64,000 nt of DNA from Saccharomonospora sp. NB11 (GTDB lineage: Bacteria; Actinomycetota; Actinomycetes; Mycobacteriales; Pseudonocardiaceae). The position numbers were made by a program, and so were the translations under genes. The notes under the pieces were generated by a model that saw only the letters and a program-made list of their open reading frames with translations, was not told where the DNA came from and made no database searches. The first letter of the stretch is position 1. Each line of letters begins with the position of its first letter. This document shows positions 43,415-64,000 of this stretch, one piece after another. The DNA lies in assembly GCF_015910535.1 (NCBI RefSeq), contig NZ_JACBJG010000007.1:1-64000 (forward strand). The letters are read 5' to 3'.

Positions 43415-44251
43415 TCAGCCCACACGGCGTCGGTAGGCCCACATCGCCAGCGGGAAGAAGACGGCCACGATTCCGGCCAGCCAGAGGACCACCCCGGTGA
43501 TCGAGGCGGGAAGCTCGTTGCGGAGCAGCAGCCCGCGCATGACGTCGGCGATCAGGCTCACCGGGTTGAACTCCGACCAGGTCGCCAGCCAGCCGGGCAT
43601 GGTGTCGGTGGGAACGAAGACGTTGCTGCCGAAGGTCAGCGGGATGACGAACATGGTCATCAACCCCTGCGCCGACGCGGTCGTGCGCACCAGCATGCCG
43701 ACGAACACCGACATCCAGCAGAAGCACAGTCCGACCACGACGATGACCACCAGCGCGGTGAGGAACGCCGGCACCGACGTGTTCATGGTGAAGCCGAGCG
43801 GGAACGCGGTGAGCAGCAGCACGGTGAGCGCCACGAAGTAGCGCACCACGTCGGCGAGTACGGCGCCGACGAGCGGGGCCGACCGAGGGATCGGCAGGCT
43901 GCGGAAGCGGTCGAAGATCCCTTTGTTGATGTCGGTGTTCAGGTACACGCCCGCGGCGAAGCTCGCCATGATCGTGTTCTGCACCGCGAGACCGGGCACC
44001 AACTGCTGGAGGTAGTCGTCGGTGCTTCCCGCCACCGCGCCTCCGAAGAGGAACGAGAACAACAGCAGGAACAGCAGCGGCTGCAACGTGACGTCGAGCA
44101 ACTGGTCCGGTGCCTTGCGAATCCGCAGCGCACCACGCCACACGAGGGCGGCGACGTGACGCAGGCTCTCGACGGTGGAGACCCGACCGGGGCGGCTCGT
44201 CCTGGTGTCCGGGTCCGTTCCGGTGAACAACGAACTGGGTGCTGTGGTCAT
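43415..44251 (-). CDS. ABC-2 type permease, DrrB family
   Basis: A 278-residue six-helix membrane permease of the daunorubicin-resistance DrrB type, forming an exporter with the ATPase encoded just upstream. The family part GLMTMFVIPLTFGSNVFVP and the EFNPVSLIADVMRG segment are clear. ATG 44251 overlaps the ATPase stop (ATGA). It is the last gene of the leftward arm of the biosynthetic cluster and probably exports the product or gives self-resistance. Confidence 0.92.
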   Translation of the reverse strand: MTTAPSSLFTGTDPDTRTSRPGRVSTVESLRHVAALVWRGALRIRKAPDQLLDVTLQPLLFLLLFSFLFGGAVAGSTDDYLQQLVPGLAVQNTIMASFAAGVYLNTDINKGIFDRFRSLPIPRSAPLVGAVLADVVRYFVALTVLLLTAFPLGFTMNTSVPAFLTALVVIVVVGLCFCWMSVFVGMLVRTTASAQGLMTMFVIPLTFGSNVFVPTDTMPGWLATWSEFNPVSLIADVMRGLLLRNELPASITGVVLWLAGIVAVFFPLAMWAYRRRVG

Positions 44252-45249
44252 CGAACCGGCTCCGATCGCTTTCCTGCCGACGTCTCCGACGTGCTGCGCT
44301 CGTCGGTACCGGTGCTGCCAGCCTGTCCGGTGAGGCCGAGGAACACCTCGTCGAGGCTGGGCAGTCGAAGTGCGAGTTCCTCGACCGTGATCTGGGCCGA
44401 GTCGAGGCGGCGGACCACTGCGGACAGCAGGCCGGGGTCGTGCACGCTCACCTTGAACGTGCGGGTCTCCGGCTGGTAGTCGGGGCGGCTGCCGGTCAAC
44501 TCGGTGAGGATGCGGGTGACGGTCTCATCGCCTGGTCCGGGAGCGATGCGCACCTGGAGGGTCTGGGAACCGATGCGTTGCTTGAGTTCGTGCGGTTTGC
44601 CCTCGGCGATCACCCGCCCGCCGTCGAGAACGGTGATCCGGTCGGCGAGCTCGTCGGCCTCTTCGAGGTACTGCGTGGTCAACAGCACGCTCATGCCGTC
44701 GTCGACCATCTGCCTGATGATCGTCCACATGTCGTTGCGGACCCGGGGATCGAGCCCCGTCGTCGGCTCGTCGAGGAACAGCACCCGAGGGCGACCGACG
44801 ATGCTCGCGGCGAGGTCGATCCGCCGACGCATGCCTCCCGAGTAGGTCCGCACCGGTCGGTGCGCGGCGTGGACGATGTCGAACGCGTCGAGGAGTTCCT
44901 CGGCACGACGCCGAGCCACCGCGCGATTGAAGTTCAGCAGCCGCCCCACGAGGACGAGGTTCTCCATGCCCGACAAGTCCTCGTCCAACGACGCGTACTG
45001 CCCGGTCAGGCCGATCAGCCTGCGCACCCGAACGGGATCACGCACGACGTCGTGCCCGTAGACCAGGGCCCGGCCCGCGTCCGGCCGGGTCAAGGTGGCG
45101 AGGATTCGCACTGCCGTGGTCTTCCCCGCGCCGTTGGGTCCGAGCAGGCCGACGACACGTCCAGGGGGGATCACGATGTCGAAATCGCTCAGCGCCGTCG
45201 TCTCGCCGAAAGTCTTCGCCAGTCCCTCGGCTTCGACCGCGTACCGCAT
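44248..45249 (-). CDS. ABC transporter ATP-binding protein, DrrA family
   Basis: A 333-residue ATPase. Walker A is GPNGAGKTTAVR, the signature is YSGGMRRRIDLA, Walker B is VLFLDEPTTGLD, and the DrrA C-terminal domain follows (residues 220-333). ATG 45249 follows GGAGGAAC. It pairs with the overlapping DrrB-type permease. Such pairs export lipophilic secondary metabolites and lipids. Confidence 0.93.
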   Translation of the reverse strand: MRYAVEAEGLAKTFGETTALSDFDIVIPPGRVVGLLGPNGAGKTTAVRILATLTRPDAGRALVYGHDVVRDPVRVRRLIGLTGQYASLDEDLSGMENLVLVGRLLNFNRAVARRRAEELLDAFDIVHAAHRPVRTYSGGMRRRIDLAASIVGRPRVLFLDEPTTGLDPRVRNDMWTIIRQMVDDGMSVLLTTQYLEEADELADRITVLDGGRVIAEGKPHELKQRIGSQTLQVRIAPGPGDETVTRILTELTGSRPDYQPETRTFKVSVHDPGLLSAVVRRLDSAQITVEELALRLPSLDEVFLGLTGQAGSTGTDERSTSETSAGKRSEPVR

Positions 45250-45288
45250 CGTGTTCGTTCCTCCAGAGTTCGCCGGCCGTGCCGGTCG

Positions 45289-45978
45289 TCAGTTCTTGGC
45301 GCCCTCGGGGACGTCGACGAGCCCGAAGTACTCCAGGCGGAACAGCGCGTCGCTCGTGATGTAGAGACCCGCCACCACACAGAGAACCAACAGGCCGGTG
45401 CGCGAGGTGCTCTTCTTCTCCCGCTTCTTCTGCACCCAGGCGTCGATCTTGGCCTTGAACTTCGTCTTCGACCGCGAGTAGATCAGCGCCACCAGCAGGC
45501 ACGGGCTGATCGCGATCAAGTTGTAGGCGACGAGAATCAGGCCGACGGCCGGGACGGGCAGCTCCGCCTTGGTGACGATGGCGATGGCACCGAAGTAGGG
45601 CAGCGCCGTGGCCACCTCGACGGCGGAGGCGGTCAGTCCGAGGCCGATCGCTCCGATCACCGAGGTCTTGCCGTTGGACCCGAAGTCGCGGTTCTTCTTC
45701 TCCCTCGGCGCGATCAAGCCGTAGAGCAGAAGTGCCACGCCGACCCCGAGCTGGATGTAGTCGATAACGGTTTCATCGAGTTCGAGGGAACGCGCACCGA
45801 AGGCCAACAGACCGCCGGCGACCACATAGATCGTGAAAAAGACACCGACGAACGCGAGAACGCGAGACATCGGTCTGCTGTTGGAGACGACCAGGTAGAT
45901 GGTTCCCAATATGAGGGAAAAGTTCGTCGAGTCGACAATGGCTAGGCCGGCCACCGCCAGAATGTCCTGAGTCCCCAA
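45289..45978 (-). CDS. GAP/Sap family membrane protein
   Basis: A 229-residue membrane protein with six hydrophobic segments, of the GAP (glycolipid-addressing)/Sap (sulfolipid-1-addressing) family. VDSTNFSLILGTIYLVVS near the start and PYFGAIAIVTKAELP in the middle are typical. TTG 45978 is chosen because GGAGGA lies 6 bases upstream. Known members help move mycobacterial glycolipids across the envelope, so in this cluster it may help move a lipidated product. Confidence 0.82.
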   Translation of the reverse strand: MGTQDILAVAGLAIVDSTNFSLILGTIYLVVSNSRPMSRVLAFVGVFFTIYVVAGGLLAFGARSLELDETVIDYIQLGVGVALLLYGLIAPREKKNRDFGSNGKTSVIGAIGLGLTASAVEVATALPYFGAIAIVTKAELPVPAVGLILVAYNLIAISPCLLVALIYSRSKTKFKAKIDAWVQKKREKKSTSRTGLLVLCVVAGLYITSDALFRLEYFGLVDVPEGAKN

Positions 45979-46000
45979 GGGTTCCTCCGTCGAGTCGCAT

Positions 46001-46050
46001 GCTCGCGACCGGTCTTGCGTGTACGGGGGGTAGTCGATCTTGTCGCGAGC
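46001..46050. repeat. Inverted repeat between GAP and ACP genes
   Basis: GCTCGCGAC (46001-46009) and GTCGCGAGC (46042-46050) are perfect 9-base arms, extendable to about 12 with one mismatch, in a 140-base gap. It could be an operator or an RNA hairpin that reduces read-through inside the leftward arm. Confidence 0.5.
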
Positions 46051-46118
46051 GTGGCGGAGATCGTAGCAGCCGGATCAACCTTCTCGCTGGTCACCCGCTC
46101 TTCCTCGATCGACTCGCG

Positions 46119-46367
46119 TCAGCTCGCGGCGATCCGCTCCGTCACGAAGGTCGCCAGATCGCCGACGGTCTTGAGGTCGGCGAGTTTGTCGTCGGGAATG
46201 GCGACGCCGAATTCGTCCTCGATGGTGGCGCCAATTTCGACCATCGACAGAGAATCGATGTCGAGGTCGTCGACGAAGTATTTTTCCGGGGTCACTTCCT
46301 CGGTCGGAAGGTCGCCGATGTCGGCGATGACGGCGATCAGTCGGGCGGTGGTCTCGTCCGTCTTCAT
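46119..46367 (-). CDS. Acyl carrier protein
   Basis: An 82-residue stand-alone ACP. The phosphopantetheine Ser is in DIDSLSMVEIG. ATG 46367 has AAGGAG upstream. It follows the fatty acyl-AMP ligase gene by 16 bases, so the ligase most likely loads a fatty acid onto it for the pathway. Confidence 0.95.
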   Translation of the reverse strand: MKTDETTARLIAVIADIGDLPTEEVTPEKYFVDDLDIDSLSMVEIGATIEDEFGVAIPDDKLADLKTVGDLATFVTERIAAS

Positions 46368-46383
46368 CGAATTCTCCTTATGG

Positions 46384-48090
46384 TCAGACGGTGTCCAGGA
46401 CCTTCAGTTCGGAATCGAGCAGCATGCGCTTGCACTCGTTACGCCGAACCTTCCGGCTGCTGGTCTTCGGAATGGCGCCACGGGGCACCAGGACGATGGT
46501 GTGGAAGTCGATTCCGTGAGCTCGGTGGACGGCCTTGCGCAGGCTGCGGCCCAGCTCCGCGCGGGCCGTCTCGTCGGCGACGTCGACCCGGCGCACCTCA
46601 GCGACGAGCACGACCCGTTCGGTCCGTCCGTCGTCGACCGACAGCACCGCCGAGCATTCGACACCCGGCGCGGCAGCCTCGACCGACGCCTCGATGTCGG
46701 CGGGGTCGTGGTTCTTGCCGTCGAGCACGACCAGGTCCTTGCGCCTGCCCGACACGAACAGCAGCCCGTCGTGGAAGAACCCGAGGTCGCCGGTGCGCAG
46801 CCAGTGTCCGGGGAGGCCGTCGCAGACGGCACCGAAGACCTCGGCGGACCGCTCCGGCTGACGCCAGTACCCGTCGGCGACGTTGGGGCCCTGGACCCAG
46901 ATCTCGCCGACCTGGTTCTCGGGCAGTTCGACGTGGGTCTCGGGGTCGACGATGCGGACGTCGGCGTCCTTCACGGCGGTGCCGCACGGGGCCATCGGGC
47001 GGCCGGTCGGTGAGTCGGGGTCCACTCGACGGGCAACGTTGCGGGCGAGCAGATCGCGGTCGAAGACGAACTCGGTGCGGCGGAACTCGTCGTCCCACGA
47101 CGTGACGCACAGGGTGGCCTCGGCGAGGCCGTAGGACCCCGCGTCGATGTCGGGCGAGATGCCGCAGGAGGCGAACGCCTCGAAGAACGCCCGTTGGCTG
47201 TCGGGGCGCACCATCTCCCCGCCGCTGATCAGGCCGCGCACGCAGGAGAGGTCCAGCTCGGCCTTCAGCTCGTCCTTCACCCGGCGGACACACAGGTCGT
47301 AGGAGAAGTTGGGGCCGACCATCCAGCACGAGCGGTAGTCGGACACCGCCTTGAGCCATCGGGAGGGCACCTGCACGAACGCGGTCGGGCTCAACTGCAC
47401 GACGTGCGTGCCTGCCGACAGAGGCACGACGAGGCCGGTGATGAGGCCGAGGTCGTGGAAGTAGGGCACCCAGCTCACCGTCGTGGCATCGGGGCCCACG
47501 AAGGGGGCGAACCCGAGGATCTGTTCGGTGTTGGCCCGCATGTTGCCGTGGGTGATGCGCACGCCGGACGGAGTGCCCGTCGATCCGGACGTGTACTGGA
47601 GGTAGGCGAGGTCGGACGGCTCGGGCGTGGCCGGTGTCCAGTCACCTGCCTCCACGGACGTCAGCTCCTCGACGGAGACGACCTTCGGGGTCGATCCGGC
47701 GGCGTGCAGGATCTCCGTGAGCTGCTCCACGGTGGACTCGGTGGTCAGCACGACTTCCGGCTCGGCGTCCCCGATCGCCGACACGAGCCGGTCGTTCGGT
47801 CGGTACGACTCGACGTGGGGCAGGGGGACGGCGATCCGTCCCGCGTAGAGGGAGCCCACGAACGCCACCACGTAGCGGTAGTCCTGCGGGCAGACGATCG
47901 CCACGCGCGCGCCCGGCGAGGTGATCCCGACGAGCCGCGACCCCACGGACCGGGCGTCGCCGTCCAGCTCCGCGTAGCTGTGGGTGGTGGCCGAGGCGTC
48001 GGTCCCGGTGCGGTACTTCAACTCGGTGAACGCGGGTCGATCTCCGCGCTCCCGGGCCGAGGCGCGCACCGCGTCGACGAATCCGATCAT
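46384..48090 (-). CDS. Fatty acyl-AMP ligase (FAAL)
   Basis: A 568-residue class I adenylate-forming enzyme of the FAAL group, which activates fatty acids as acyl-adenylates and passes them to an ACP and not to CoA. YTSGSTGTPSGV is the phosphate loop, MVGPNFSYDLCVRR and GSYGLAEATL are typical FAAL segments, and TGDLGFFHDGLLFVSGR leads to the C-terminal domain with IPKTSSRKVRR. ATG 48090 overlaps the ThDP gene stop. The adjacent ACP is its likely partner. Confidence 0.93.
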   Translation of the reverse strand: MIGFVDAVRASARERGDRPAFTELKYRTGTDASATTHSYAELDGDARSVGSRLVGITSPGARVAIVCPQDYRYVVAFVGSLYAGRIAVPLPHVESYRPNDRLVSAIGDAEPEVVLTTESTVEQLTEILHAAGSTPKVVSVEELTSVEAGDWTPATPEPSDLAYLQYTSGSTGTPSGVRITHGNMRANTEQILGFAPFVGPDATTVSWVPYFHDLGLITGLVVPLSAGTHVVQLSPTAFVQVPSRWLKAVSDYRSCWMVGPNFSYDLCVRRVKDELKAELDLSCVRGLISGGEMVRPDSQRAFFEAFASCGISPDIDAGSYGLAEATLCVTSWDDEFRRTEFVFDRDLLARNVARRVDPDSPTGRPMAPCGTAVKDADVRIVDPETHVELPENQVGEIWVQGPNVADGYWRQPERSAEVFGAVCDGLPGHWLRTGDLGFFHDGLLFVSGRRKDLVVLDGKNHDPADIEASVEAAAPGVECSAVLSVDDGRTERVVLVAEVRRVDVADETARAELGRSLRKAVHRAHGIDFHTIVLVPRGAIPKTSSRKVRRNECKRMLLDSELKVLDTV

Positions 48091-49766
48091 GACTTCTCGC
48101 CCGTACCTTCGCTGTCGTCGAGGTGTGTGATGCCTGCGGGAACGTCGCTGTCGGGGACCGGCACGCGGATCAGTGAGAAGGTTCCCCGTGCGGCGTTCTG
48201 CGCGGCGGTGGTCAGTGCCTCCGCCAGGTCGTGCTCGTCGGTGACGTCGCAGCCCCAGCCACCGAAGGCGCCTGCGAGCGCCGCGACGTCGAACCGGGCC
48301 CGACGTTCGGTGAGAGAGGCGTCGACCTCCTCCGCGTGGCGCAGATGGCGTGGCCAGCCGTAGCCCCCGTTGTCGAGGATGAGCACGACGACGCCGAGGC
48401 GGTGTTCGCGGAACGTGGCCAGCACGTTGAGGCTGAGCAGGAACGCGCTGTCGCCGGTGATCGCCAGGACCGCGCCGGTGCGCCCTGCGACTGCCGCGCC
48501 GACCGACGCGGCGAGGCCGAAGCCCATCATGGTCTGCTCGCCGGGACACACGACGCGTGTGTCGGCGCCCAGCGCGGTGACGGGGAAGTGGTACGACCAG
48601 ATGTCGTGCAGCCCGTTCTCCTGTGCGAGCACGGAGATCGGGTTCAGGTGCCGTTGCGCGAGTCCGATCGCGGCGCGAGCGGGGGAGTCGGCGAAGGAGA
48701 CGTCGGCGAGTGCCTTCTGCTCCAAGCGGACCCGCTGCCGCAGTTCCGTCCACTTCGTACGGTCGGGGTGGGGGCGACGGGACAGCACGTCGAGCAACTT
48801 CGGTACCGCGAGCGCGGCATCTGCGAGCACCGGAACCGTGGGTTCGACACCCTCGCCGAACGCCGTGTCGTCGACGTCGATGTGGACGACGGGAACCCGC
48901 CGCCAGCTCGACCACCCCATGCGGGCGGTCTCCTCGAAGCGACTCCCCACGACGACGAGCAGGTCGGCCTCCTCCAGCAGTTCGACGGCCGGTGGGGTCG
49001 TGTAGAGGCCGACGAGCCCCACGAAGTGCTCGGACTCCTCGGGCATCACACCACGTCCCGCCGCGGTGCAGAAGACGGGCGCCGCGCACACCTCTGCCAG
49101 CGCCTCCAACCGGAACGACTCGACCCGCCGGGCACCGCCGCCGATCACCAGCACCGGGCGTTCGGCACCGACGACGAGGTCGGCTGCCCGGGCGAGGACG
49201 TCGCACGCGGGGGCCGGTCGTGGTCGGGGCACCGGTCGCGGCAGTGGCTCGTCGCCGATCTCGGCCCTGGTGACCTCGTCGGTGATCTCGACGAGCGTGA
49301 TGCCGCCCCGCCCGCTCGACGCGAGCTGAACGGCGCGGCCCATCGCCCAGGCGAGGTTTGAGGGATCGTCGACGACGTAGCGCCACGTGGCGAGGTCGGC
49401 CAGCATGCCCTGCTGATCGAGGTACTGGAAGGCGCCGCGGCCGATGTTCTCGGCGGGCACCCTGGTGGTCACCACCACCACGGGCACCGACAGGGACGCG
49501 CACTCCAGCAGCCCGGGCAGGGCGTTGGCGAAGCTCGGTCCGGAGTTCACCGCGAGGACGGCCGGACGCCGTGCCGCCATGGCGTACCCGGCCGCGGCGC
49601 ACGCGGCGACCCGCTGGTCGCCGACGACCCGGACGTCGAACTCGGTGCGGTTCGCCGCCGCGTCGAGCAGACCGGGCTCGTCGGAGGGGAGCCCGAACAC
49701 GGTCGTGCACCCGTACTCCGACAGCACGTCGGTGACGACCTCCCAACACGGGCGCGAGGTCGCCAT
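48087..49766 (-). CDS. Thiamine diphosphate-dependent acetolactate-synthase-like enzyme
   Basis: A 559-residue ThDP enzyme with the three domains of acetolactate synthase/sulfopyruvate decarboxylase relatives. The pyrophosphate-binding motif is AITGDSAFLL... ending in LDNGGYGWP. In the N-terminal Pyr domain, the family's catalytic Glu (usually RHEQxAA) aligns with Gln in VVGDQRVAACAAAGYA, so ThDP activation may differ, as in glyoxylate carboligase. ATG 49766 shares one base with the upstream stop (TGATG); the upstream TTG 49769 is less likely. It is probably a carboligase or decarboxylase that makes a building block for the cluster product. Confidence 0.85.
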   Translation of the reverse strand: MATSRPCWEVVTDVLSEYGCTTVFGLPSDEPGLLDAAANRTEFDVRVVGDQRVAACAAAGYAMAARRPAVLAVNSGPSFANALPGLLECASLSVPVVVVTTRVPAENIGRGAFQYLDQQGMLADLATWRYVVDDPSNLAWAMGRAVQLASSGRGGITLVEITDEVTRAEIGDEPLPRPVPRPRPAPACDVLARAADLVVGAERPVLVIGGGARRVESFRLEALAEVCAAPVFCTAAGRGVMPEESEHFVGLVGLYTTPPAVELLEEADLLVVVGSRFEETARMGWSSWRRVPVVHIDVDDTAFGEGVEPTVPVLADAALAVPKLLDVLSRRPHPDRTKWTELRQRVRLEQKALADVSFADSPARAAIGLAQRHLNPISVLAQENGLHDIWSYHFPVTALGADTRVVCPGEQTMMGFGLAASVGAAVAGRTGAVLAITGDSAFLLSLNVLATFREHRLGVVVLILDNGGYGWPRHLRHAEEVDASLTERRARFDVAALAGAFGGWGCDVTDEHDLAEALTTAAQNAARGTFSLIRVPVPDSDVPAGITHLDDSEGTGEKS

Positions 49767-54484: not shown

Positions 54485-55096
54485 ATGAAGGGGCAGTTGG
54501 TTTCGCTCGATCCTTCGATGTCTGCCGACGACTGGGACCTGCTCGCCCAGTGGTCGTCGTCGGAGGTGTCGGTCTTCTCCTCGGGCGGGCGGTACGCCGT
54601 CACCGGGGAGCAGCTTCGGTCACAGACCAGCGGTGGGATGACGTACCTGATGGTCGTCGACAAGGCCGGGAAGCGGGTCGGCGCCGTGAACTGGCGGCAG
54701 CTCACCTACGACGGCCACTACGAGGTCGGCAACGCCATCGGCGTGCCCGAGCTGTGGGACCTCGGCTACGGTGTCGAGTCCGTCATGCTGCTGATCGACT
54801 TCCTGTTCCACCAGCGCAACGCCCACCGGATCCACCTCAAGACCGGGTCCTTCAACCGTCGCATGGTGCAGATCTTCACGTCCGGTCACATCCGCATCGA
54901 GGGGGTGCTCCGGGACTACTTCTTCCTCGACGGCGAGTACCACGACGCGATCGTCGGCTCGATCCTGCGCCACGAGTACTACCGCCTCGCGGAACTGGAG
55001 GGCGGTCCGTCCATGGACGTGATCCCCGCGGAGGAGAAGGCCGAGGCCAAGCGGCGGCTGCGCGAGTACCTCCGGGAGAACCCGATCACGTTCTGA
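54485..55096 (+). CDS. GNAT family N-acyltransferase
   Basis: A 203-residue RimJ/RimL-type GNAT protein. GKRVGAVNWRQL and EVGNAIGVPELWDLGYGVES make up the acetyl-CoA-binding core and HRIHLKTGSFNRRMVQI the conserved helix after it. The start is ATG 54485; GTG 54473 is in frame but only one base after GGAG. In known lipolanthine-type pathways a GNAT moves the acyl chain from a carrier protein to the peptide N-terminus; location directly upstream of the PKS and LanKC makes that role likely here. Confidence 0.85.
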   Translation: MKGQLVSLDPSMSADDWDLLAQWSSSEVSVFSSGGRYAVTGEQLRSQTSGGMTYLMVVDKAGKRVGAVNWRQLTYDGHYEVGNAIGVPELWDLGYGVESVMLLIDFLFHQRNAHRIHLKTGSFNRRMVQIFTSGHIRIEGVLRDYFFLDGEYHDAIVGSILRHEYYRLAELEGGPSMDVIPAEEKAEAKRRLREYLRENPITF

Positions 55097-55133
55097 CGGG
55101 ATCGAGGTGACAGGACAGAAGCGAGGGAACGTG

Positions 55134-58100
55134 ATGAAGGTAGTCGGGCCCACGGACCAGCAGTTGGAGATTCGCGGCCGCATCCTCGACTGGGTCAGCG
55201 AGCGGGCCGACATCGCGCGGGGTTCGGTCAGCCTCACGATGCCGTTGTACGAGGTGGGTCTCAGCTCCGCCGACATCGTCGAACTCACCGGGGAACTGGG
55301 TGAGCACTACGACCTGGACCTCCCGCCGGACACGGTGTTCGAGTTCCCGAGCATCGCTCTGTTGGCGAAGCACATCGCGAGTCGACTCGCCCCGGAGGAC
55401 GGTGTGGACTCCCGCACCGCGAGCCAGAACGAGACGACCTCGGACGAGCCGATCGCGGTGATCGGCCTCGGCTGTCGCTTCCCGGCCGGGGTGAACGGGC
55501 CGGACGCGCTGTGGTCGCTGCTCGTGGACGGTCGGGACGTGATCGGCAGGGTGCCGAGCGGTCGTTGGGACCACGAGACCGGCTCGCCCGAGGTGGCGGA
55601 GCTGGTCGCGGGGACGGCCGGAGTCGGCGGCTTCCTCGACGACATCGCGGCCTTCGATCCCGCGTTCTTCGGCATCGCGCCCAACGAGGCGAAGGTCATG
55701 GACCCACAGCAGCGGATCGCGCTGGAAGTGGCCGTGGAATGTCTGGACCACGCCGGGATCGCGCGGGAGACGCTGGGCCGGGGGACGACCGGCGTGTTCA
55801 TGGGCGCGACGTCCGCGGACTACCTGCCGGACGACCTCGCGGGGATGGACGGCTGGTCGACGGCGGGAGCGTCGCTGGGTGTCGTCGCCAACCGCATCTC
55901 CTACGCCCTCGGCACACGCGGCCCCACGATGACCGTCGACACCGCGTGCTCCAGCTCTCTCGTGGCCGTCCACCTCGCGGTGCAGAGTTTGCGGGCGGGT
56001 GACTGCGACCTCGCGCTCGCCGGTGGGGTGAACGCCCTGCTGTCCCCGGCGGTCTCCATCGCGTTCACCCGCGCCGGGGTGCTGGCGGGCGACGGTCGGT
56101 GCAAGACGTTCGACGCCGCCGCCGACGGGTACACGCGCAGCGAAGGCTGCGGCATGGTGGCGCTGAAGCGGCTGAGTGACGCCGTTCGCGACGGCGACCG
56201 GGTGCTCGCGGTGGTGCGCGGCAGCGCGGTCGGGTCGAACGGCCACTCCAACGGGCTGATGGCCCCGCATCCCGTTGCGCAGGAGGAACTGCTGCGCAAC
56301 GCCTACCGCGACGCGCGCGTCGATCCGGGCGAGGTCGACTTCGTCGAGGCCCACGGCACGGGAACGGCCCTCGGTGACGCGGTCGAGCTGACGGCGCTCC
56401 AGGCGGTGATGACGGAAGGGCGTTCGGCGGACCGGCCGCTGCGGCTCGGGGCGGTGAAGACGAACCTGGGTCACCTGGAGGCCGCGGCCGGGATCGCGGG
56501 CTTGATCAAGACGGTGCTCGCGCTGTGGCACGAGAGCCTGCCCCGCAACCTCCACTACGCCGAGCCGAACCCCAAGCTCCGCGAGTCGGCCGGGGCGTTG
56601 GAGGTCGTACGTGAGCAGGTCGCTTGGCCTCGCGGGTCGCGTCCCCGCACGGCAGGGGTGAGCTCCTTCGGCTTCGGTGGCACGAACGCACACGTCGTCG
56701 TGGAGGAAGCTCCCCGGACGTCCCCGCCACGGAGCGGGCGCACCCGACACGGTCTTCCGCCGGTGGTGATGGTGTCGGCGAGTTCCACCGATGCCGTCCG
56801 GCGCGAGGCGGCGACGATGCTCGACGTCCTCGACCGGTCTGCCGCGCCGCACGTCGACGACCTCGCGCACACCGTCACGCTGCGCCGGACCCACGGACCA
56901 GTTCGCGCGGCCGTCGCGGCGGAGGGCGACACCGAGCTGCGGGAGGCGCTGGAGGCGGTGGCGGCCGGGAAGGCCCACGCCGCCGTGGTCACCGACCACG
57001 TCCACGACGACCCCGCCCCGGTGTTCGTGTTCTCGGGGCAGGGCTCCCAGCACGTCGGGATGGCCAGGGAGCTGCTCGACGAACCGGTCTTCGCCGACGT
57101 CCTGGACGAGCTCGAACCGGTGATCGCGGAGGAGAGCGGGTTCAGCCTGCTCGACGTCCTGAACTCCGGGGACGAGCACGCGCTCGACCCGATCGACGTG
57201 GTGCAGCCGACCTTGTTCGCGGTCCAGGTCGCTCTCGCCGAGACCTGGCGGGCGTACGGGGTCACGCCTGCGGCCGTGATCGGTCACTCCATGGGCGAGG
57301 TCGCCGCGGCGGTGGTCGCCGGTGCGGTGAGTCCGACCGACGGCGCGCGCATCACGTGTCGCCGTTCCCGGGCGCTGGCGGGAATCTCCGGTCGTGGCGC
57401 CATGGCGATGGTGGCCGCCGACAGCGCGTCGACGACCGCGCTGATCGCCGAGGAAGGACTGGGCGAGGAGGTCACGATCGGCGTGGTCCCGAGTCCGGTG
57501 TCGACGGTGGTCTCCGGGTCTGTCACGGGAGTCGAGCGGCTGATCAAGGTCTGCGCCGGTCGGGGAGTCGACGCCGTCCGGGTGCAGGTCGACGTCGCGT
57601 CGCACTCGTCGCAGGTGGACGAGATCCTCGACGGCATTCGAGCCGCTCTCGCCGACATCGAGGTCGGAGAGCCCATCGTGCCGCTGTACTCGACGGTGAC
57701 GGGCGGCCGACACCGGGCGTCGATGACCGCCGACTACTGGGTGGACAACCTGCGGCAGCCGGTGCTGTTGGCGAACGCGGTCGGTGCCGCCGTCGACGAC
57801 GGCCGATCGGTGTTCGTCGAGATCAGCCCGCACCCCGTCCTCGTGCGCCCGCTCACCGACACTCTCGCGGGTCGTGGCGGCCGGGCCTTCGGCACCCTGC
57901 ATCGTGAGCGGCGGGCGGACGTGGCGTTCGCGGCGGCGTTGGCCCGACTGCACTGCCTGGGCGCCGACGTCCGGTGGCCGTCCACCATGACGGAGGGCCG
58001 GCTGGTGTCGTTGCCGCCTCGCGCGTGGCACCACCGTCGTTACTGGCGTGAGCGGCGGTCGAGCGTGCCGACGCTCGCGCGCGACGGGCATCCGCTGCTC

Positions 58101-60590
58101 GGCACCGTGACGGTCCCCGCCGACGCGCCCGGCACGCGCATCTGGTCGACCACCCTGGACCCTGGCACGAACGGTCGACTCGCCGCGCACCGCGTGGGCG
58201 GGCGGGACGTGCTCACGGCCTCGTACGTGTTGACCCTGCTCACGGCCGCCGCCACGGAGTACGGCCACGAGCGGCCTTCCGCGCGGGCCGTGACCTTCCA
58301 CAGCCCCGTCGCCGTCGACGGCCCGGTCGACCTCCAGGTGCTCTGCCGCCGGGACGCGTCGTCGGACGTGGTGGACGCACGCGTCTTCCACCGGCCGTCC
58401 GGTGGCTCCGACTGGACGGTGGCGGCGTCGGCCAGGTTGGAGCCGGGCCGCAGCGAGATCGACCCGCCGTCGTTCGACGCCACCGGCGAGGAACTGACCG
58501 GCTCGGCCCTGTACGACGCGCTGGCGGCGTGCGGCGTCGAGTACCAGGGCGAACTCCGGTGTGTCGACGTCGTCCGCCTCGGTGGGCGGACCGCCGTCGC
58601 CGCGCTGTCACAGGTCCGCGACGGTGACGGCGGGCCGAACCCGGTGGCGGTGGACGGTGCCGTGCAGGTGGCGGGCACGGTCCTGCTCGACAGCTCCGGG
58701 ACCGCCGTCGTCGCGGCGGTGGACGCCTGGACGATTCTGCGGCCCGACGCCGGACCCGTTCGCCACGTGCACGCGGTGCGACGTGACGTGGAGCCGACCG
58801 TCGTCGACGTCGTCCTGAGCGACGACACCGGGCCGGTCGCACTGGGGGCGGGCGTGCGCTTCGCCACCTCGGGCCCTGCCGGTGAGTCGCGGGTGTCCGA
58901 TCTTCGAGGGCTGACCTACCGCCTGGACTGGCAACCGGCCACCGCCGCCCCCACGCGGCCCGAGCAGGAGACGTGGTTGCTGCTCGGAGCCGACAACGGG
59001 CTGCTGGACACGCTGCGCCAGCAGGGAGTCCGCTGCTCCCGGTTGCGTGGGGAACCCTCGGCCGAGGAGGTGGCCGAGGAACTGCGCTCGGCCGGGCCCT
59101 TCGACCGAGTGGTGTCGCTCGTGCCGCTGCCGGTCCAGGGTGCGGAGCCACAGGATGCGTTGCGGCTCGTGCGCGACGCCGCGGCGGTGCTGCGCGCGGT
59201 GTGCGAGGCAGGCGGCAGGACCCGGCTGCACTACGTGACCCACCACGCCGTTCGGACGGACCCGGACGACCCGGAGACCGTGCACGCGGCACAGGCCGCG
59301 GTGTGGGGCTTCGGTCGCAGCGCGGCGCTGGAACACCCCGACCACTGGGGCGGCACGCTGGACGTGGCCGACACCGACACAGCCGTCGTCGCGCAGGCGT
59401 TGCTGCGCGGACTCGTGGGCTCGTCGTCGGTGACGCAGCTCGCCCACCGCGAAGGCGAGCATCTCCAGCCTCGCCTGGTCCGGACCGTGGTGCGGCCGTC
59501 GGAGGCGGCCACGGACGGTGGGACGCACCTGGTCGTCGGCGGCACCGGGCGACTGGGGCCGACGGTGGTCCGCGAGCTGGCGGAGTCCGGAGCGGCCTGT
59601 GTGGTCGTGGCCTCCCGCCGCGGTGGGTTCGGTCTGCCCGAGGAAGAGGTCGAACACCTCCGTGCCCGGGGCACGCAGCTCGTGGCGGTGTCCCTGGACG
59701 TCTCCGACCCGGAGGCCGTCGCCGCGGTCTTCGACCGTTTCGGCGCCGACCTGCCCCCGCTGCGTCGGGTGTACCACTGCGCCTTCAGCGAGTCGGTCGT
59801 GGCGATCGACGAGCTGACCGACGCGCAGTGGCGGGCGATGTTCGCGGGCAAGGTGTTCGGGATCGACGCCCTGCGGCGGCGCCTCGCCGAGCATGCCGGA
59901 GCCGACGTCGTGTGCTTTTCCTCGACGACCGGTGTCCTCGGCTCCGTCGGGCTGGCTCACTACGCCGCGGCGAGCACCTACCTCGACGCCCTCGCCGGGC
60001 CCGGTGTGCGCGTCGTGGACCTCGGCCCCGTCGCCGACGGCTTCGCCGACGGCGAGTACACCGAGCAGGTGAGGGCGTCCGGTCTGGGGTTCCTCGACAC
60101 GGCGACGATCCGAGCGGTCGTCCGGCACCTCGCCGGGCCGTGGCCGGAGCACCCCGTGGTCGTGGTCGACGCGGACTGGCGAGGGGTCGACACGTCCCTG
60201 CGCTGGGCGACGCGGTCACCGGTGACGGCGGACTTGGTGCGGCAGGGCGGCGAGACCGTGGCCTCGGCGACCGTCTCCACGGACGATCTCGTCGCCGAAG
60301 TGCGTTCGGCGAGCCCGGAGGACCGGGCGGACGCGCTGCTCCGCTACCTGCGGCACATCGTCGCCGAGGCCCTCGGCACTCCGGCCGAGGAGCTGCCCGA
60401 CGAGCAGGACCTCTACCAGATCGGGATGGACTCGCTGATGACCGTCACCGTGATCCGCCGGATCGGCGGCAGCCTCGGCTACGACCTCCTGCCGACCGAG
60501 TTCCGCGACAACCCGACGCTGCGGGCACTGGGGAACCTGCTCGCGCGCAAACCCCTGCCGCAGCGAACCGGCACGGAGGGAGCGGCATGA
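55134..60590 (+). CDS. Type I polyketide synthase, one module: ACP-KS-AT-DH-KR-ACP
   Basis: An 1818-residue PKS. N-terminal ACP (about 10-85) with GLSSADIVEL (Ser45; Ser in place of the usual Asp before it). KS (about 105-525): DTACSSSL (Cys272), EAHGTGTA, NLGHLEAAAG, all intact. AT (about 620-925): Ser719 in GHSMGEVA and a VASH specificity motif that does not clearly choose malonyl or methylmalonyl. DH (about 970-1230): His1019 in HRVGGRDVLTA and Asp-Gln in VDGAVQ. KR (about 1465-1650): GGTGRLG and Tyr1610. C-terminal ACP: GMDSLMTV (Ser1767). There is no thioesterase or enoylreductase. ATG 55134 follows GAGGGA; GTG 55107 is the alternative. Confidence 0.95.
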   Translation: MKVVGPTDQQLEIRGRILDWVSERADIARGSVSLTMPLYEVGLSSADIVELTGELGEHYDLDLPPDTVFEFPSIALLAKHIASRLAPEDGVDSRTASQNETTSDEPIAVIGLGCRFPAGVNGPDALWSLLVDGRDVIGRVPSGRWDHETGSPEVAELVAGTAGVGGFLDDIAAFDPAFFGIAPNEAKVMDPQQRIALEVAVECLDHAGIARETLGRGTTGVFMGATSADYLPDDLAGMDGWSTAGASLGVVANRISYALGTRGPTMTVDTACSSSLVAVHLAVQSLRAGDCDLALAGGVNALLSPAVSIAFTRAGVLAGDGRCKTFDAAADGYTRSEGCGMVALKRLSDAVRDGDRVLAVVRGSAVGSNGHSNGLMAPHPVAQEELLRNAYRDARVDPGEVDFVEAHGTGTALGDAVELTALQAVMTEGRSADRPLRLGAVKTNLGHLEAAAGIAGLIKTVLALWHESLPRNLHYAEPNPKLRESAGALEVVREQVAWPRGSRPRTAGVSSFGFGGTNAHVVVEEAPRTSPPRSGRTRHGLPPVVMVSASSTDAVRREAATMLDVLDRSAAPHVDDLAHTVTLRRTHGPVRAAVAAEGDTELREALEAVAAGKAHAAVVTDHVHDDPAPVFVFSGQGSQHVGMARELLDEPVFADVLDELEPVIAEESGFSLLDVLNSGDEHALDPIDVVQPTLFAVQVALAETWRAYGVTPAAVIGHSMGEVAAAVVAGAVSPTDGARITCRRSRALAGISGRGAMAMVAADSASTTALIAEEGLGEEVTIGVVPSPVSTVVSGSVTGVERLIKVCAGRGVDAVRVQVDVASHSSQVDEILDGIRAALADIEVGEPIVPLYSTVTGGRHRASMTADYWVDNLRQPVLLANAVGAAVDDGRSVFVEISPHPVLVRPLTDTLAGRGGRAFGTLHRERRADVAFAAALARLHCLGADVRWPSTMTEGRLVSLPPRAWHHRRYWRERRSSVPTLARDGHPLLGTVTVPADAPGTRIWSTTLDPGTNGRLAAHRVGGRDVLTASYVLTLLTAAATEYGHERPSARAVTFHSPVAVDGPVDLQVLCRRDASSDVVDARVFHRPSGGSDWTVAASARLEPGRSEIDPPSFDATGEELTGSALYDALAACGVEYQGELRCVDVVRLGGRTAVAALSQVRDGDGGPNPVAVDGAVQVAGTVLLDSSGTAVVAAVDAWTILRPDAGPVRHVHAVRRDVEPTVVDVVLSDDTGPVALGAGVRFATSGPAGESRVSDLRGLTYRLDWQPATAAPTRPEQETWLLLGADNGLLDTLRQQGVRCSRLRGEPSAEEVAEELRSAGPFDRVVSLVPLPVQGAEPQDALRLVRDAAAVLRAVCEAGGRTRLHYVTHHAVRTDPDDPETVHAAQAAVWGFGRSAALEHPDHWGGTLDVADTDTAVVAQALLRGLVGSSSVTQLAHREGEHLQPRLVRTVVRPSEAATDGGTHLVVGGTGRLGPTVVRELAESGAACVVVASRRGGFGLPEEEVEHLRARGTQLVAVSLDVSDPEAVAAVFDRFGADLPPLRRVYHCAFSESVVAIDELTDAQWRAMFAGKVFGIDALRRRLAEHAGADVVCFSSTTGVLGSVGLAHYAAASTYLDALAGPGVRVVDLGPVADGFADGEYTEQVRASGLGFLDTATIRAVVRHLAGPWPEHPVVVVDADWRGVDTSLRWATRSPVTADLVRQGGETVASATVSTDDLVAEVRSASPEDRADALLRYLRHIVAEALGTPAEELPDEQDLYQIGMDSLMTVTVIRRIGGSLGYDLLPTEFRDNPTLRALGNLLARKPLPQRTGTEGAA

Positions 60591-61165
60591 CCACAGCGAC
60601 CATCGACGACATCGCGGCCTGGTACGACGCCCGCCGTGACGAGTCCCTCGGCCACGGGGAGTGGCACGAGGTGAGCCTGGAGGACGTCCGGGGCTTCGCC
60701 GCGGTGACGCGCGACGACCAATGGATCCACACCGATCCGGAGCGGGCGGCCGACGGGCCCTACGGCGGGCCGATCGCGCACGGCTTCCTGGTGCTGTCGC
60801 TCGTGCCGCACCTCTGCGACTCGCTGCTCGACTTCCGGTGGTCGGCGATGGCGGTCAACTACCGCATCGACAAGGTCCGGTTCCGGGCCCCGGTCCCGGT
60901 CGGCGCGAAGGTCCGGGCGTCGGCGAAGGTCCACCAGTGCCGGGTTCGGCCCCGCGGATACCTCGAACTCGCGTTGGCGGTGACCGTGGAACTCGCCGAC
61001 AGCACCGCGCCCGCCTGCTCCCTCGTGTTCACGACCCTGCACCAGGTGCGTGACGACGCATCGCTGCCGGTCGCACTCGGTGCGTCCGCGCCCGCCACCC
61101 CCTCGTCGCGGTCGAGCGCCCCCGCGGGCGCCGACGGCACGGAGAGAAACGCCGAGGTCAACTGA
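60587..61165 (+). CDS. MaoC-like hot-dog dehydratase
   Basis: A 192-residue R-specific enoyl hydratase/dehydratase-type protein. The hydratase-2 motif runs DDQWIHTDPERAA...GGPIAHGFL, with Asp and His of the active site. The last 40 residues are Ala/Ser-rich and probably disordered. ATG 60587 overlaps the PKS stop as ATGA, so it is coupled to the PKS. It may dehydrate the beta-hydroxyacyl chain and help or replace the PKS DH domain. Confidence 0.9.
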   Translation: MTTATIDDIAAWYDARRDESLGHGEWHEVSLEDVRGFAAVTRDDQWIHTDPERAADGPYGGPIAHGFLVLSLVPHLCDSLLDFRWSAMAVNYRIDKVRFRAPVPVGAKVRASAKVHQCRVRPRGYLELALAVTVELADSTAPACSLVFTTLHQVRDDASLPVALGASAPATPSSRSSAPAGADGTERNAEVN

Positions 61166-61166
61166 C

Positions 61167-63770
61167 ATGTCCGTTACCGCGCGCGAGGTCTACACCTTCG
61201 CCGACCCGATCTTCTACGACTCGCCGGAGAACTGGCAGGGCACGGACACGGACTCGTTCGAGGTCTGCGAGCGAGCCGTGCCCCCGGGCTGGCTGCGGGA
61301 CGCGCAGGCGTTCTGGACGTTCCTCCGCCCGGAGGGTGCGACCCTGCCCGAACAGGGCTGGAAGGTCCACGTCACCGCGGGGCCGGAGCACGTCGACAAG
61401 GCGTGCGCGCTCGTGTGGGACTACTGCGTCGACAAGGGCATCCCGTTCAAGCACCTGGCGAACCGACGCACCTACCTCGCGCTGAACTCGAAGTACGCAC
61501 CCCGTGGTGCGAGCGGCAAACTCGTGACGATCTACCCGGCCGACGACGCCGAGCTGGAACGGGTCGTGCTCGACCTCGAAGACCTGCTCGCGGGCATCGA
61601 GGGCCCCGCGATCCTCAGCGACCGGAGGTGGCGCGACTCCCCGGTGTACGTCCGGTACGGCTCGTTCGTGCCGAAGACCGTGCTCGACCCGGACGGCAGC
61701 CTCGTCCCGGCGATGTCCGCCCCCGACGGCACGGCGGTGCCCGACCGGCGTGCCGCGCGGTTCTCCGTCCCGTCGTGGGTGACGCCGCCCGCCTTCCTCG
61801 ACGACGCGGGCAAGCACGACGTCGTCGACCCGAAGGCCTTCCCGTACAAGGTCACCCGGGCACTGCACTTCTCGAACGCCGGTGGCGTCTACCTCGCGAC
61901 CCGGCTCACCGACGACAAGACCGTGGTGCTGAAGGAGGCCCGTCCCGGCGCGGGTCTCGACCAGTCGTTCGCCGACGCGAGCAAGCGGCTGGAGCACGAG
62001 GCGCAAACCTTGCGCACGTTGGCGGACGTCGCGGCGGTGCCCGACATCTTCGACGTCGTCGAGGCCGGTGGCCACCGGTTCATCGTCATGGAGTACGTCG
62101 AGGGAACGAACCTGTGGACTTGGCTCGGCCAACGGCACCCCATGATCGTGCTCGACGAACCGACCGAGGCCGACTACCGGCGCTACGCCGACGAGGCCAC
62201 CACCGTGCTGGCAGCGGTGGGCCGCGCGCTCGACGAGATCCACGAGCACGGCATCGGGTTCGGTGACATGAACTTCGGCAACGTCATCGTCCAGGACGAC
62301 GGAGCCGTGCGTCTCGTCGATCTCGAAATGGCGTACGACCTCGCCGACGAGCACTACGAACCGGGCCTCGGCACGATCGGGTTCCTCCCCGGCAAGGGAG
62401 CGACCGGACTGGAGATCGACGACTACGCGCTGGCTGCGTTGAAGCTCTCGCTGTTCTTCCCGATGGAGAAGCTGCGCATCTTCGACCAGTCCAAGTTGGA
62501 CCTTCACTTGTCGATCTTGTCCTCGCGGTTCGGCCTGCCGGACGACGAGGTCGAGGACATCCGGCGCACGCTGACCGCGCGTCCGCCCGCGGTACGCAGC
62601 GAGTTCGTCGGGGCTCCGCCGCAGCTCGACCTGACGGTGCCGGACGATCGTCGCGTCGCGGTCGAGTCGATGCAGGCCGCGATCCTCGCGTCGGCGACGC
62701 CGGAGCGGACCGACCGGCTGTTCCCCGGGGACTCCGCGGGCTTCTCCCCGGGCGGGGGCCTCAACCTGGCCCACGGTGCGGCGGGCATCCTGTGGGCCCT
62801 GCACCGGACGGGCGCGACGATCGATCCGACGCTCGAACGCTGGTTCGTCGACAGGGCGCGCGAGGGCAAACCGATGCCACCCGGCCTCTACACCGGGGCA
62901 CACGGCGTCGCCTACGTCCTCGACCAGTTGGGTCACCGGGAGCTCGCGCTCGACGTGCTCGACCGACCCGACGCCCAGGAGGACGGTCTCGCCGCGATCG
63001 GGATGTACGGCGGGCTGGCGGGCGTGGGGCTGAACCTGCTGCACTTCACGGACGAGCCACGATTCGACGAACGGCGCGCGCGGGTGACCGAACGCCTCGT
63101 CGAGGCTCTCGACGGTCCCGCGCAGGACGGCGGGCCGGTGCGCTCCGACGGCGGGGACCGCGCGCCGTCGAAGACCGGGTTGCTGCACGGGTTCGCGGGT
63201 GTGGCGCTGTACTTCCTCGAACTGCACAGGCGCACCGGCGACGAGTCGGCGCTTAATCACGCCGTGACGGCGCTGCACCGGGATCTCGATCGGTGCGTGC
63301 GCACCGTCTCCGGGTCGTTGCAGGTGGAGGAGCCGGGACTCAGGACGAACTGCTACCTCTCGGTGGGCAGCGCCGGGATCGCCCTCGTGGCCGACGAGGT
63401 GCTCGACCATCGTCACGACGAGCGCATCGCGGACGCGGTGCCGTTGCTGTTGAAGGCCTGCTGCAGCGAGTTCGTGCTACAGCCCCAGCTGTTCGCGGGA
63501 CGGGCTGGGCTGCTGGCCGCGGTGTCGCGACACCTGTCCCGGGCGCGAAGCCGTGACACCGAGCTCGACGGTGCGGCGGTCGTGCGGCGCCATCTTTCGA
63601 ACCTGCGGTGGCATGCGTTGTCCTATCGGGGCGGTCTCACGTTCCCGGGGGAGTACTGCCTTCGCTTGTCGATGGATCTCGCGACGGGAACGGCGGGTGT
63701 GCTTCTCGCTCTCGCGGAAATGTCGGGTGAAGGAGTGTCGATCCTGCCGTTTCTCAGTTCGAAAATTTGA
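61167..63770 (+). CDS. lanKC: Class III lanthionine synthetase (LanKC)
   Basis: An 867-residue three-domain enzyme: N-terminal lyase (about 1-210), kinase (about 225-500) and LanC-like cyclase (about 530-867). The kinase has VVLKEARPGAG (Lys), GFGDMNFGNVIV (catalytic Asp and Asn) and RLVDLEMA (metal Asp). It would phosphorylate Ser/Thr, eliminate phosphate and cyclise with Cys to make lanthionine or labionin/avionin. The usual LanC zinc Cys-Cys-His set (CHG motif) is not seen, as in other class III enzymes. ATG 61167 begins one base after the MaoC stop. Confidence 0.95.
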   Translation: MSVTAREVYTFADPIFYDSPENWQGTDTDSFEVCERAVPPGWLRDAQAFWTFLRPEGATLPEQGWKVHVTAGPEHVDKACALVWDYCVDKGIPFKHLANRRTYLALNSKYAPRGASGKLVTIYPADDAELERVVLDLEDLLAGIEGPAILSDRRWRDSPVYVRYGSFVPKTVLDPDGSLVPAMSAPDGTAVPDRRAARFSVPSWVTPPAFLDDAGKHDVVDPKAFPYKVTRALHFSNAGGVYLATRLTDDKTVVLKEARPGAGLDQSFADASKRLEHEAQTLRTLADVAAVPDIFDVVEAGGHRFIVMEYVEGTNLWTWLGQRHPMIVLDEPTEADYRRYADEATTVLAAVGRALDEIHEHGIGFGDMNFGNVIVQDDGAVRLVDLEMAYDLADEHYEPGLGTIGFLPGKGATGLEIDDYALAALKLSLFFPMEKLRIFDQSKLDLHLSILSSRFGLPDDEVEDIRRTLTARPPAVRSEFVGAPPQLDLTVPDDRRVAVESMQAAILASATPERTDRLFPGDSAGFSPGGGLNLAHGAAGILWALHRTGATIDPTLERWFVDRAREGKPMPPGLYTGAHGVAYVLDQLGHRELALDVLDRPDAQEDGLAAIGMYGGLAGVGLNLLHFTDEPRFDERRARVTERLVEALDGPAQDGGPVRSDGGDRAPSKTGLLHGFAGVALYFLELHRRTGDESALNHAVTALHRDLDRCVRTVSGSLQVEEPGLRTNCYLSVGSAGIALVADEVLDHRHDERIADAVPLLLKACCSEFVLQPQLFAGRAGLLAAVSRHLSRARSRDTELDGAAVVRRHLSNLRWHALSYRGGLTFPGEYCLRLSMDLATGTAGVLLALAEMSGEGVSILPFLSSKI

Positions 63771-63846
63771 TAACCCGCCGATCAACCGTAGGTCGGGGGC
63801 CGGTTGTCTGTTAGCTTTATTCCAGGAACGGAACGGGGAGGGAAGA

Positions 63847-63909
63847 ATGGTGAACCCGGACTCGCGGGCTCTCGGACTTCCCGGAGAAGAAGTTGAGCTT
63901 TCTCGCTGA
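63847..63909 (+). CDS. Candidate 20-residue ORF after lanKC
   Basis: ATG 63847 lies behind an exceptionally good ribosome site (GGGGAGGGAAG). The peptide is MVNPDSRALGLPGEEVELSR. It has no Cys and only two Ser, so it is not a lanthipeptide core. It may be a leader ORF that controls the following precursor gene. Confidence 0.3.
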   Translation: MVNPDSRALGLPGEEVELSR

Positions 63910-63939
63910 TACGGACTTTCTCGCCGACGTATCGGTGTT

Positions 63940-63962
63940 GTGATTCGAATAATGGTAATCAC
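63940..63962. promoter_or_regulatory. Inverted repeat upstream of the precursor gene
   Basis: GTGATT (63940-63945) and AATCAC (63957-63962) form a dyad with an A/T-rich centre, 26 bases before the precursor ATG. GTGATTC also occurs at 54267 in the cluster's other control region. Confidence 0.4.
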
Positions 63963-63987
63963 GTGTTCCGGGAGGAGGTGCGCGGAA

Positions 63988-64000
63988 ATGTCGATCCTGG
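63988..64000 (+). CDS. Start of a probable class III lanthipeptide precursor (cut by window edge)
   Basis: GGAGGAGG (63971-63978) is followed 9 bases later by ATG 63988, encoding MSIL before the window ends. Known class III leaders start in this manner (for example labyrinthopeptin MASILELQ), and the gene directly follows lanKC, where the precursor usually lies. Only 13 bases are visible, so the identity is inferred. Confidence 0.55.

Follow-up and report, generated by a model that had tools for sequence, protein, structure and literature searches.

A gene cluster that probably directs the synthesis of an N-acylated class III lanthipeptide was identified in Saccharomonospora sp. NB11. The window, which is the stretch of 64,000 nucleotides analyzed here, covers positions 1-64000 of a contig of 302,961 bp (NZ_JACBJG010000007.1) in a 4.3-Mb genome. 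The cluster extends from 43415 to contig position 65783, past the window edge, and consists of two arms that diverge at approximately 53.8-54.5 kb. The right arm contains, in order, the genes encoding a GNAT acyltransferase, a type I polyketide synthase (PKS), a MaoC-type dehydratase and the class III lanthipeptide synthetase LanKC. The left arm contains those encoding a second acyl-AMP/CoA ligase (AMP-ligase), a FabF-type ketosynthase (KS), an aldehyde dehydrogenase (ALDH)-like protein, a thiamine diphosphate (ThDP) enzyme, a fatty acyl-AMP ligase (FAAL), an acyl carrier protein (ACP), a GAP/SfLAP-type protein, DrrA and DrrB. All of these proteins and the two divergent arms had been named in a first-pass annotation and were confirmed by Pfam/NCBIfam profile scans of the window and the adjoining contig. 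The product is probably glycosylated as well. The decarboxylase LanD was not found, and the ring is expected to be labionin or lanthionine, not avionin, with a free C-terminus.

This reading is preferred because relatives of the GNAT adjoin LanKC and precursors with the pattern S-x2-S-x2-C in 17 loci. When 394 genomes of the class were searched with the GNAT, nine matched, the source genome included; a scan of a named genome collection yielded 31 loci, of which 24 were strong, with flanks of at most 10 kb. LanKC is present in 13 of the strong loci, which belong to an Actinomycetes metagenome-assembled genome (MAG DX1.bin91, locus L056), Streptoalloteichus, Frankia, Amycolatopsis, Crossiella and Streptomyces (eight loci). 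Together with the window, G083, G431 and G615 these make up the 17, all of which have S-x2-S-x2-C precursors. The strong loci also contain the ThDP enzyme (16), the AMP-ligase (15) and, at a high threshold, the KS (13). Eleven named loci (L056, L067, L069, L072-L078 and L086) combine GNAT, ALDH and LanKC, as does G083. Given this co-occurrence, it is very improbable that the locus holds two adjacent pathways, one for a plain class III lanthipeptide and one for an unrelated lipid or polyketide, although the proposed link between lipid and peptide is a genomic one, and the ALDH/ThDP/AMP-ligase cassette occurs without LanKC on Streptomyces plasmids and in Bacillota.

A search with the ALDH-like protein in 397 genomes of the order gave 19 matches, including its own, and the neighborhoods of three matching genomes (its own, G083 and G286) were read. 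The best match, G083, belongs to the same family and holds the whole cluster with the arms in the same order and some extra genes. L056 also has both arms in the same order, with 65-87% protein identity to the window. Since both arms recur in order in G083 and L056, the cluster is not a product of chance. The FAAL and one-module PKS are found together in the window, G083 and L056. The cassette of G286 has no GNAT or LanKC within the 20 kb read. The GNAT of G083 is split over two frames (L027 4760-5384), by a frameshift or a sequencing error.

Three precursor genes (A1, A2 and A3) were found directly behind LanKC (stop at 63770); the absence of any precursor with a Ser/Cys core beyond 64000 had been named as a refutation of the first-pass reading, which these genes thus favor. 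All three cores have the lipolanthine pattern S-x2-S-x2-C, and a GGAGG-type ribosome site was read by eye before each gene. A1 (25.3) and A3 (26.3) pass the NF033212 cut-off of 25, whereas A2 (24.9) misses it; A2 passes NF038154 (22.2, cut-off 22). LanKC and class III-type precursors with a Ser/Cys core place the cluster in class III. LanKC would phosphorylate and eliminate both serines of S-T-A-S-x-N-C in the three precursors, and the cysteine would close the ring. A host protease would then cut the leader, and the GNAT would transfer the acyl chain from its carrier to the new N-terminus. The glycosyltransferase may decorate the product, and DrrAB and GAP may export it. Three M1 peptidases in the genome are candidate leader-removing proteases; M1-type leader removal is reported for microvionin (excerpt of PMC10885120).

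LanD and the C-terminus of the product

The first-pass annotation had expected a LanD flavoprotein decarboxylase beyond 64000 and an avionin-bearing product. The LanD profile found nothing in the 80 kb of contig sequence around the cluster, the PF02441 profile matched a single protein in the whole genome, CoaBC (TIGR00521 388 bits, cut-off 219.7), and a LanD protein query of the genome returned only the CoaBC frame. PF02441 alone was rejected as a sufficient LanD detector, as some flavoproteins score near its limit. The LanD of the G083 cluster sits between MaoC and LanKC. In L056 these two genes are adjacent as in the window, with no LanD between them, and an assembly error was rejected on this ground. 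The avionin claim is thus unsupported, and because the decarboxylase for the avionin ring end was not found, the cluster probably makes a chemically different variant. Without LanD, the carboxyl group of the C-terminal cysteine would be retained and labionin or lanthionine formed instead of avionin. The computed mass of the A3 core after loss of two H2O is 845.313 Da without decarboxylation and 799.307 Da with avionin, the acyl chain being extra.

The LanKC tree groups the window and L056 with the LanD-bearing G083 and then L057 (supports 100/100, 100/99 and 97/95), and loss of LanD is therefore the simplest history. Ten genes compared between the window and L056 have nonsynonymous divergence (dN) of 0.08-0.25 and synonymous divergence (dS) of 0.66-0.94, i.e., purifying selection (LanKC, dN 0.193 and dS 0.896; GNAT, dN 0.076 and dS 0.658), which argues that the form without LanD is functional. 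A decaying cluster that has lost LanD and yields no finished product is accordingly improbable: all open reading frames (ORFs) are open and three near-identical precursors are retained, whereas the points in its favor are the missing LanD and the dehydratase (DH) motif of the PKS, which reads H-x3-G-x4-T by eye where P is usual.

The 17 LanKC loci fall into three sets. LanD is present in two (G083 and L057), a PF13454 FAD/NAD-binding protein of 538-727 aa in 12 (e.g., L074 13789-15747 of Streptomyces nigrescens HEK616, L078 and L069), and neither in three (the window, L056 and G615). The two proteins do not occur together in any of the 17, the absence of LanD from the PF13454 loci being judged within the stretch read, mostly 10 kb on each side. 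Within the PF13454 set, L076 additionally contains a weak flavoprotein ORF, which was not taken as LanD at only 16.9 bits to the LanD profile. The PF13454 protein was found in none of 12 distinct GNAT loci without LanKC (L058-L066, L068, L070 and G738) and in none of seven weak loci. The 12 PF13454 loci represent few independent lineages, six being from closely related Streptomyces (L071-L074, L076 and L086), and their producers carry other PF02441 proteins elsewhere in the genome. In the window genome, PF13454 gave two weak matches (23.2 bits and 21.4 bits, the latter rising to 31.4 when its frame neighbors are included), neither of the cluster type. No work on PF13454 in lanthipeptide clusters was found in the open-licence literature.

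Residues past the core cysteine occur in 0 of 35 precursors from the 14 loci with LanD or the PF13454 protein and in 3 of 6 from the three loci without (Fisher 0.0019), a contrast to which only the window and G615 contribute and which is not phylogenetically independent. As judged from these sequences, the pattern would fit a C-terminal cysteine that is constrained where it is decarboxylated. The PF13454 protein is a candidate stand-in for LanD, as a new cysteine decarboxylase or another C-terminal enzyme. A broader scheme is offered tentatively, in which lipidated class III peptides have three C-terminal chemistries (LanD-dependent avionin in 2/17 loci, a PF13454-dependent end in 12/17 and a free-carboxyl labionin or lanthionine in 3/17) and may draw their tails from a new ThDP/ALDH pair in which neither enzyme needs its customary catalytic Glu.

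It is rather unlikely that the product is a true avionin lipolanthine, decarboxylated in trans by CoaBC or an unrecognized enzyme after A1 has been trimmed to its cysteine. The core pattern is that of avionin peptides (nocaviogua A-S-V-S-S-N-G-C, excerpt of PMC10435860), CoaBC belongs to the same flavoprotein family as LanD, and the twelve related clusters with PF13454 and no LanD in the stretch read leave room for LanD-free decarboxylation. However, the sole homologue is the housekeeping CoaBC, the genome showed no PF13454 protein of the cluster type, nothing occupies the LanD slot, and A1 carries one residue (Gly) past the core cysteine. The C-terminal Gly was rejected as sole proof against decarboxylation, two of the three precursors being Cys-terminal.

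Several points weigh against a product with a free C-terminus or against the N-acylated lanthipeptide as a whole. A2 and A3 still end in cysteine, as LanD substrates require. The LanKC tree is midpoint-rooted only, which leaves two gains of LanD possible. In the MAG, a LanD gene lies 29 kb from the GNAT of L056, on one contig with it and beside another precursor-like gene of the ribosomally synthesized and post-translationally modified peptide (RiPP) type, and this LanD may possibly act in trans. The source genome is a draft of 29 contigs (99.98% complete), and we know of no published labionin from S-x2-S-x2-C. What the ALDH/ThDP set does is guesswork, and the cluster is known here from its genes.

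The LanD on the MAG contig was rejected as part of the L056 cluster, as it adjoins a different precursor-like ORF and approximately 15 kb of other genes lie between. At L087 2579-5676 on this contig, LanD is accompanied by hydrolase-like genes and by an ORF of 56 aa with the C-terminal sequence GSTICLVC, possibly a second RiPP cluster of the AviCys type.

Enzymes of the acyl arm

Against solved structures, the FAAL is close to other FAALs, among them FadD32 (7.8e-98 and 3.5e-97); its best NCBIfam match is NF004509 (fatty-acid--AMP ligase), with a score below the cut-off. The PKS begins with an ACP-like domain bearing a GLSS motif, and an N-terminal ACP is typical where a FAAL loads a PKS. The FAAL would load a fatty acid onto either the stand-alone ACP or this N-terminal ACP. 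No enoyl reductase (ER) or thioesterase was found among the Pfam matches of the PKS; an enoyl product is predicted because ketoreductase (KR) and DH domains are present without an ER. The PKS and MaoC would add at least one ketide that undergoes reduction and dehydration and stays unsaturated. A FabI-type reductase adjoins MaoC in G083, whereas the window has none there.

The ALDH-like protein keeps the nucleophile Cys245 (GQDC), and its general-base Glu is replaced. This Glu is missing in 21 of 21 cassette relatives and kept in four of five other ALDHs (L015 being without it). An ALDH without the base Glu should not hydrolyze the thioester that it forms, which is also the case for CoA-acylating ALDHs and reductases. 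The structural model has the ALDH fold (predicted local distance difference test 81.8), and its best 50 fold-search matches include ordinary ALDH-fold enzymes. In the ThDP enzyme, Gln stands in place of the catalytic Glu of acetolactate synthase (alignment to 6lpi). The same holds for all 18 cassette relatives; L057, whose ThDP gene is more distant, keeps Glu. The two substitutions form a coordinated pair of losses (window; L023-L029, L056-L086). An assignment of the ThDP enzyme as guanidino-oxovalerate decarboxylase was rejected (NF005712 172 bits, cut-off 500).

The AMP-ligase, ALDH, ThDP enzyme and KS would contribute a second, specialized acyl feature. ALDH-AMP-ligase fusions of 801-928 aa occur in five LanKC loci (L067, L069, L075, L077 and L078), and because of them a sequence from acid through acyl-AMP and thioester to aldehyde is favored. 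We infer the reactions, their order and the product from the genes; our guess is that an acid passes through acyl-AMP to a Cys-thioester on the ALDH-like protein and then to an aldehyde, which would enter a ThDP-dependent carboligation. Such a reductive route for the AMP-ligase/ALDH/ThDP set is given an even chance, and an oxidative route, from a 2-oxo acid through an aldehyde to an acyl thioester starter, is more doubtful. No account of the ThDP/ALDH cassette was found in the open-licence literature; an ALDH is present in the excerpt of the SB-203208 paper, and the word thiamine is absent from it.

The first-pass annotation had also proposed that the acyl part is built in a different way. The proposal agrees with a comparison with published lipolanthines, so far as these are described in the excerpts cited below, but the ALDH on which it partly relied does not distinguish the window, being a common partner of the GNAT (19 of the 24 strong loci, seven of these in Bacillota). 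The FAAL and PKS distinguish the cluster better, as FAAL was found in only one strong locus (L056) and in G083.

The cassette was also observed outside lanthipeptide clusters. Seven Bacillota loci (L058, L060-L063, L065 and L066) contain GNAT, AMP-ligase, ALDH and ThDP enzyme with no LanKC match, and the genera with this LanKC-free cassette are Brevibacillus, Cytobacillus, Bacillus, Fictibacillus and Rossellomorea. Genes for a FabD-like protein, beta-ketoacyl-ACP synthase III (KAS III), ACP, nonribosomal peptide synthetase, ATP-grasp and amino-acid enzymes adjoin L063 and L058 (read by eye), and the Bacillota clusters perhaps make an acylated non-lanthipeptide. Streptomyces plasmids (L023-L026) bear the ALDH/ThDP/AMP-ligase cassette; those of L023 and L024 adjoin NikS, ATP-grasp and tyrosine aminomutase genes and that of L025 one ATP-grasp gene, while L026 carries no annotation.

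Borders and gene content

The same genomic site in four congeners has conserved genes up to 42123-42527 on one side and HypF on the other. A search of this site with every cluster protein gave only a DrrA-like ATPase with 30% identity, in one congener. Because the site has the outer neighbors without the cluster genes, the borders were set at 43415 and 65783. Three genes after the glycosyltransferase were rejected as members since they are present at the site in cluster-free congeners, namely an alpha/beta hydrolase (1/4), a second GNAT (3/4) and a DUF4267 gene (1/4). The content of contig positions 42527-68594 (from the gene at 42123 to HypF) varies among the four congeners, and the site is perhaps an insertion hot spot. 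G286 has a further ALDH/ThDP cassette approximately 14 kb beyond HypF.

Table 1. Features of the cluster with their contig coordinates (the window ends at 64000)
Feature	Position	Strand	Evidence
DrrB-type ABC-2 permease, left cluster border	43415..44251	-	PF01061 5.1e-31; no match at site in four congeners
DrrA-type ABC ATPase	44248..45249	-	PF00005, PF13732
GAP/SfLAP-type membrane protein, lipid export family	45289..45978	-	PF11139 2.6e-23; relatives in G083, L056, L057
Stand-alone ACP	46119..46367	-	NF002147 91 bits, cut-off 84; DIDSL motif
FAAL, FadD32-like	46384..48090	-	PF00501, PF23024 (scanned on longer open frame containing FAAL)
ThDP enzyme, acetolactate-synthase family	48087..49769	-	PF02776/00205/02775
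ALDH-like protein	49766..51094	-	PF00171 7.6e-28
FabF-type beta-ketoacyl-ACP synthase	51082..52353	-	TIGR03150 504.5 bits, cut-off 493.75; Cys/His/His motifs
Second acyl-AMP/CoA ligase	52350..53834	-	PF00501 3.2e-45
GNAT acyltransferase, presumed acyl-to-peptide joiner	54473..55096	+	PF13302 9.8e-9; relatives adjoin LanKC and precursor
Type I PKS, one module, ACP-KS-AT (acyltransferase)-DH-KR-ACP	55107..60590	+	Pfam domains, motifs
MaoC-type dehydratase	60587..61165	+	PF01575 8e-21
LanD slot, empty here (MaoC stop and LanKC start separated by a single base)	61166		G083 has LanD here
Class III lanthipeptide synthetase LanKC	61167..63770	+	NF038151 939 bits, cut-off 575
Precursor A1 MSILDLQVLEVPAAEAELPNSTASVNCG, core NSTASVNCG	63988..64074	+	
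Precursor A2 MSILDLQTLEVPAVEAELPNSTASYNC, core NSTASYNC	64128-64211, beyond window		
Precursor A3 MSILDLQTLEVPAVEAELPNSTASWNC, core NSTASWNC	64267-64350, beyond window		
Glycosyltransferase	64455-65783, beyond window		55% identity to a glycosyltransferase of the G083 cluster

Comparison with known systems

The cluster had been annotated as encoding a lipolanthine/goadvionin-like lipopeptide. The part of this claim that concerns an N-acylated class III peptide is supported by the GNAT relatives beside LanKC and precursors, whereas the avionin part is not. Lipolanthines (microvionin, nocavionin and nocaviogua) resemble the window in having a class III LanKC, a short S-x2-S-x2-C precursor and an N-terminal fatty acid or polyketide, and the window has both this core and acyl genes of the fatty acid synthase/PKS kind. 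The avionin of known lipolanthines is made with the cysteine decarboxylase MicD (excerpts of PMC12328550 and PMC12076493), and their acyl group is described as a bis-methylated guanidino fatty acid (excerpt of PMC10373908). The window differs in that no LanD-type cysteine decarboxylase was found and in its FAAL and AMP-ligase/ALDH/ThDP set. It is not filed as a lipolanthine because the defining LanD/avionin feature was tested for and not found.

The acyl chain of goadvionins reportedly comes from a long modular PKS, whereas the window has a single PKS module with FAAL and the ThDP/ALDH set, and no LanD was found. Goadvionins join a polyketide to a peptide by an acyltransferase, as the title of Kozakai 2020 (cited in PMC13060382) indicates. 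The short acyl group of lipoavitides is said to be made via a KAS III route; the KS of the window is of the FabF type, and no KAS III was found among the genes scanned. Lipoavitides are N-terminally lipidated RiPP/fatty-acid hybrids with the acyltransferase LpvE (excerpts of PMC13060382 and PMC12076493). FadD32-Pks13 and other FAAL-loaded PKSs share with the window a FadD32-like FAAL clustered with a PKS that bears an N-terminal ACP. They differ in that no thioesterase was found among the Pfam matches of the window PKS, its product presumably being passed to the GNAT.

Also close are the clusters of G083 and L056, which have the same two-arm layout and related precursors; that of G083 differs from the window in its LanD, FabI-type reductase and P450. 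No published account of this cluster type was recognized in the open-licence literature. Microvionin is active against methicillin-resistant Staphylococcus aureus and Streptococcus pneumoniae (excerpt of PMC10435860), and new lipid-lanthipeptide hybrids are worth finding for this reason. According to the excerpt of PMC9415263, it is not yet understood what directs LanKC toward labionin or toward lanthionine. A natural cluster free of decarboxylase offers a test of this choice and of the need for avionin in the activity. Specific, testable enzyme questions are also posed by the ThDP/ALDH pair and by the occurrence of either LanD or PF13454. The cluster is probably a further variant of the lipolanthine-type logic, in which a class III peptide is combined with an acyl tail.

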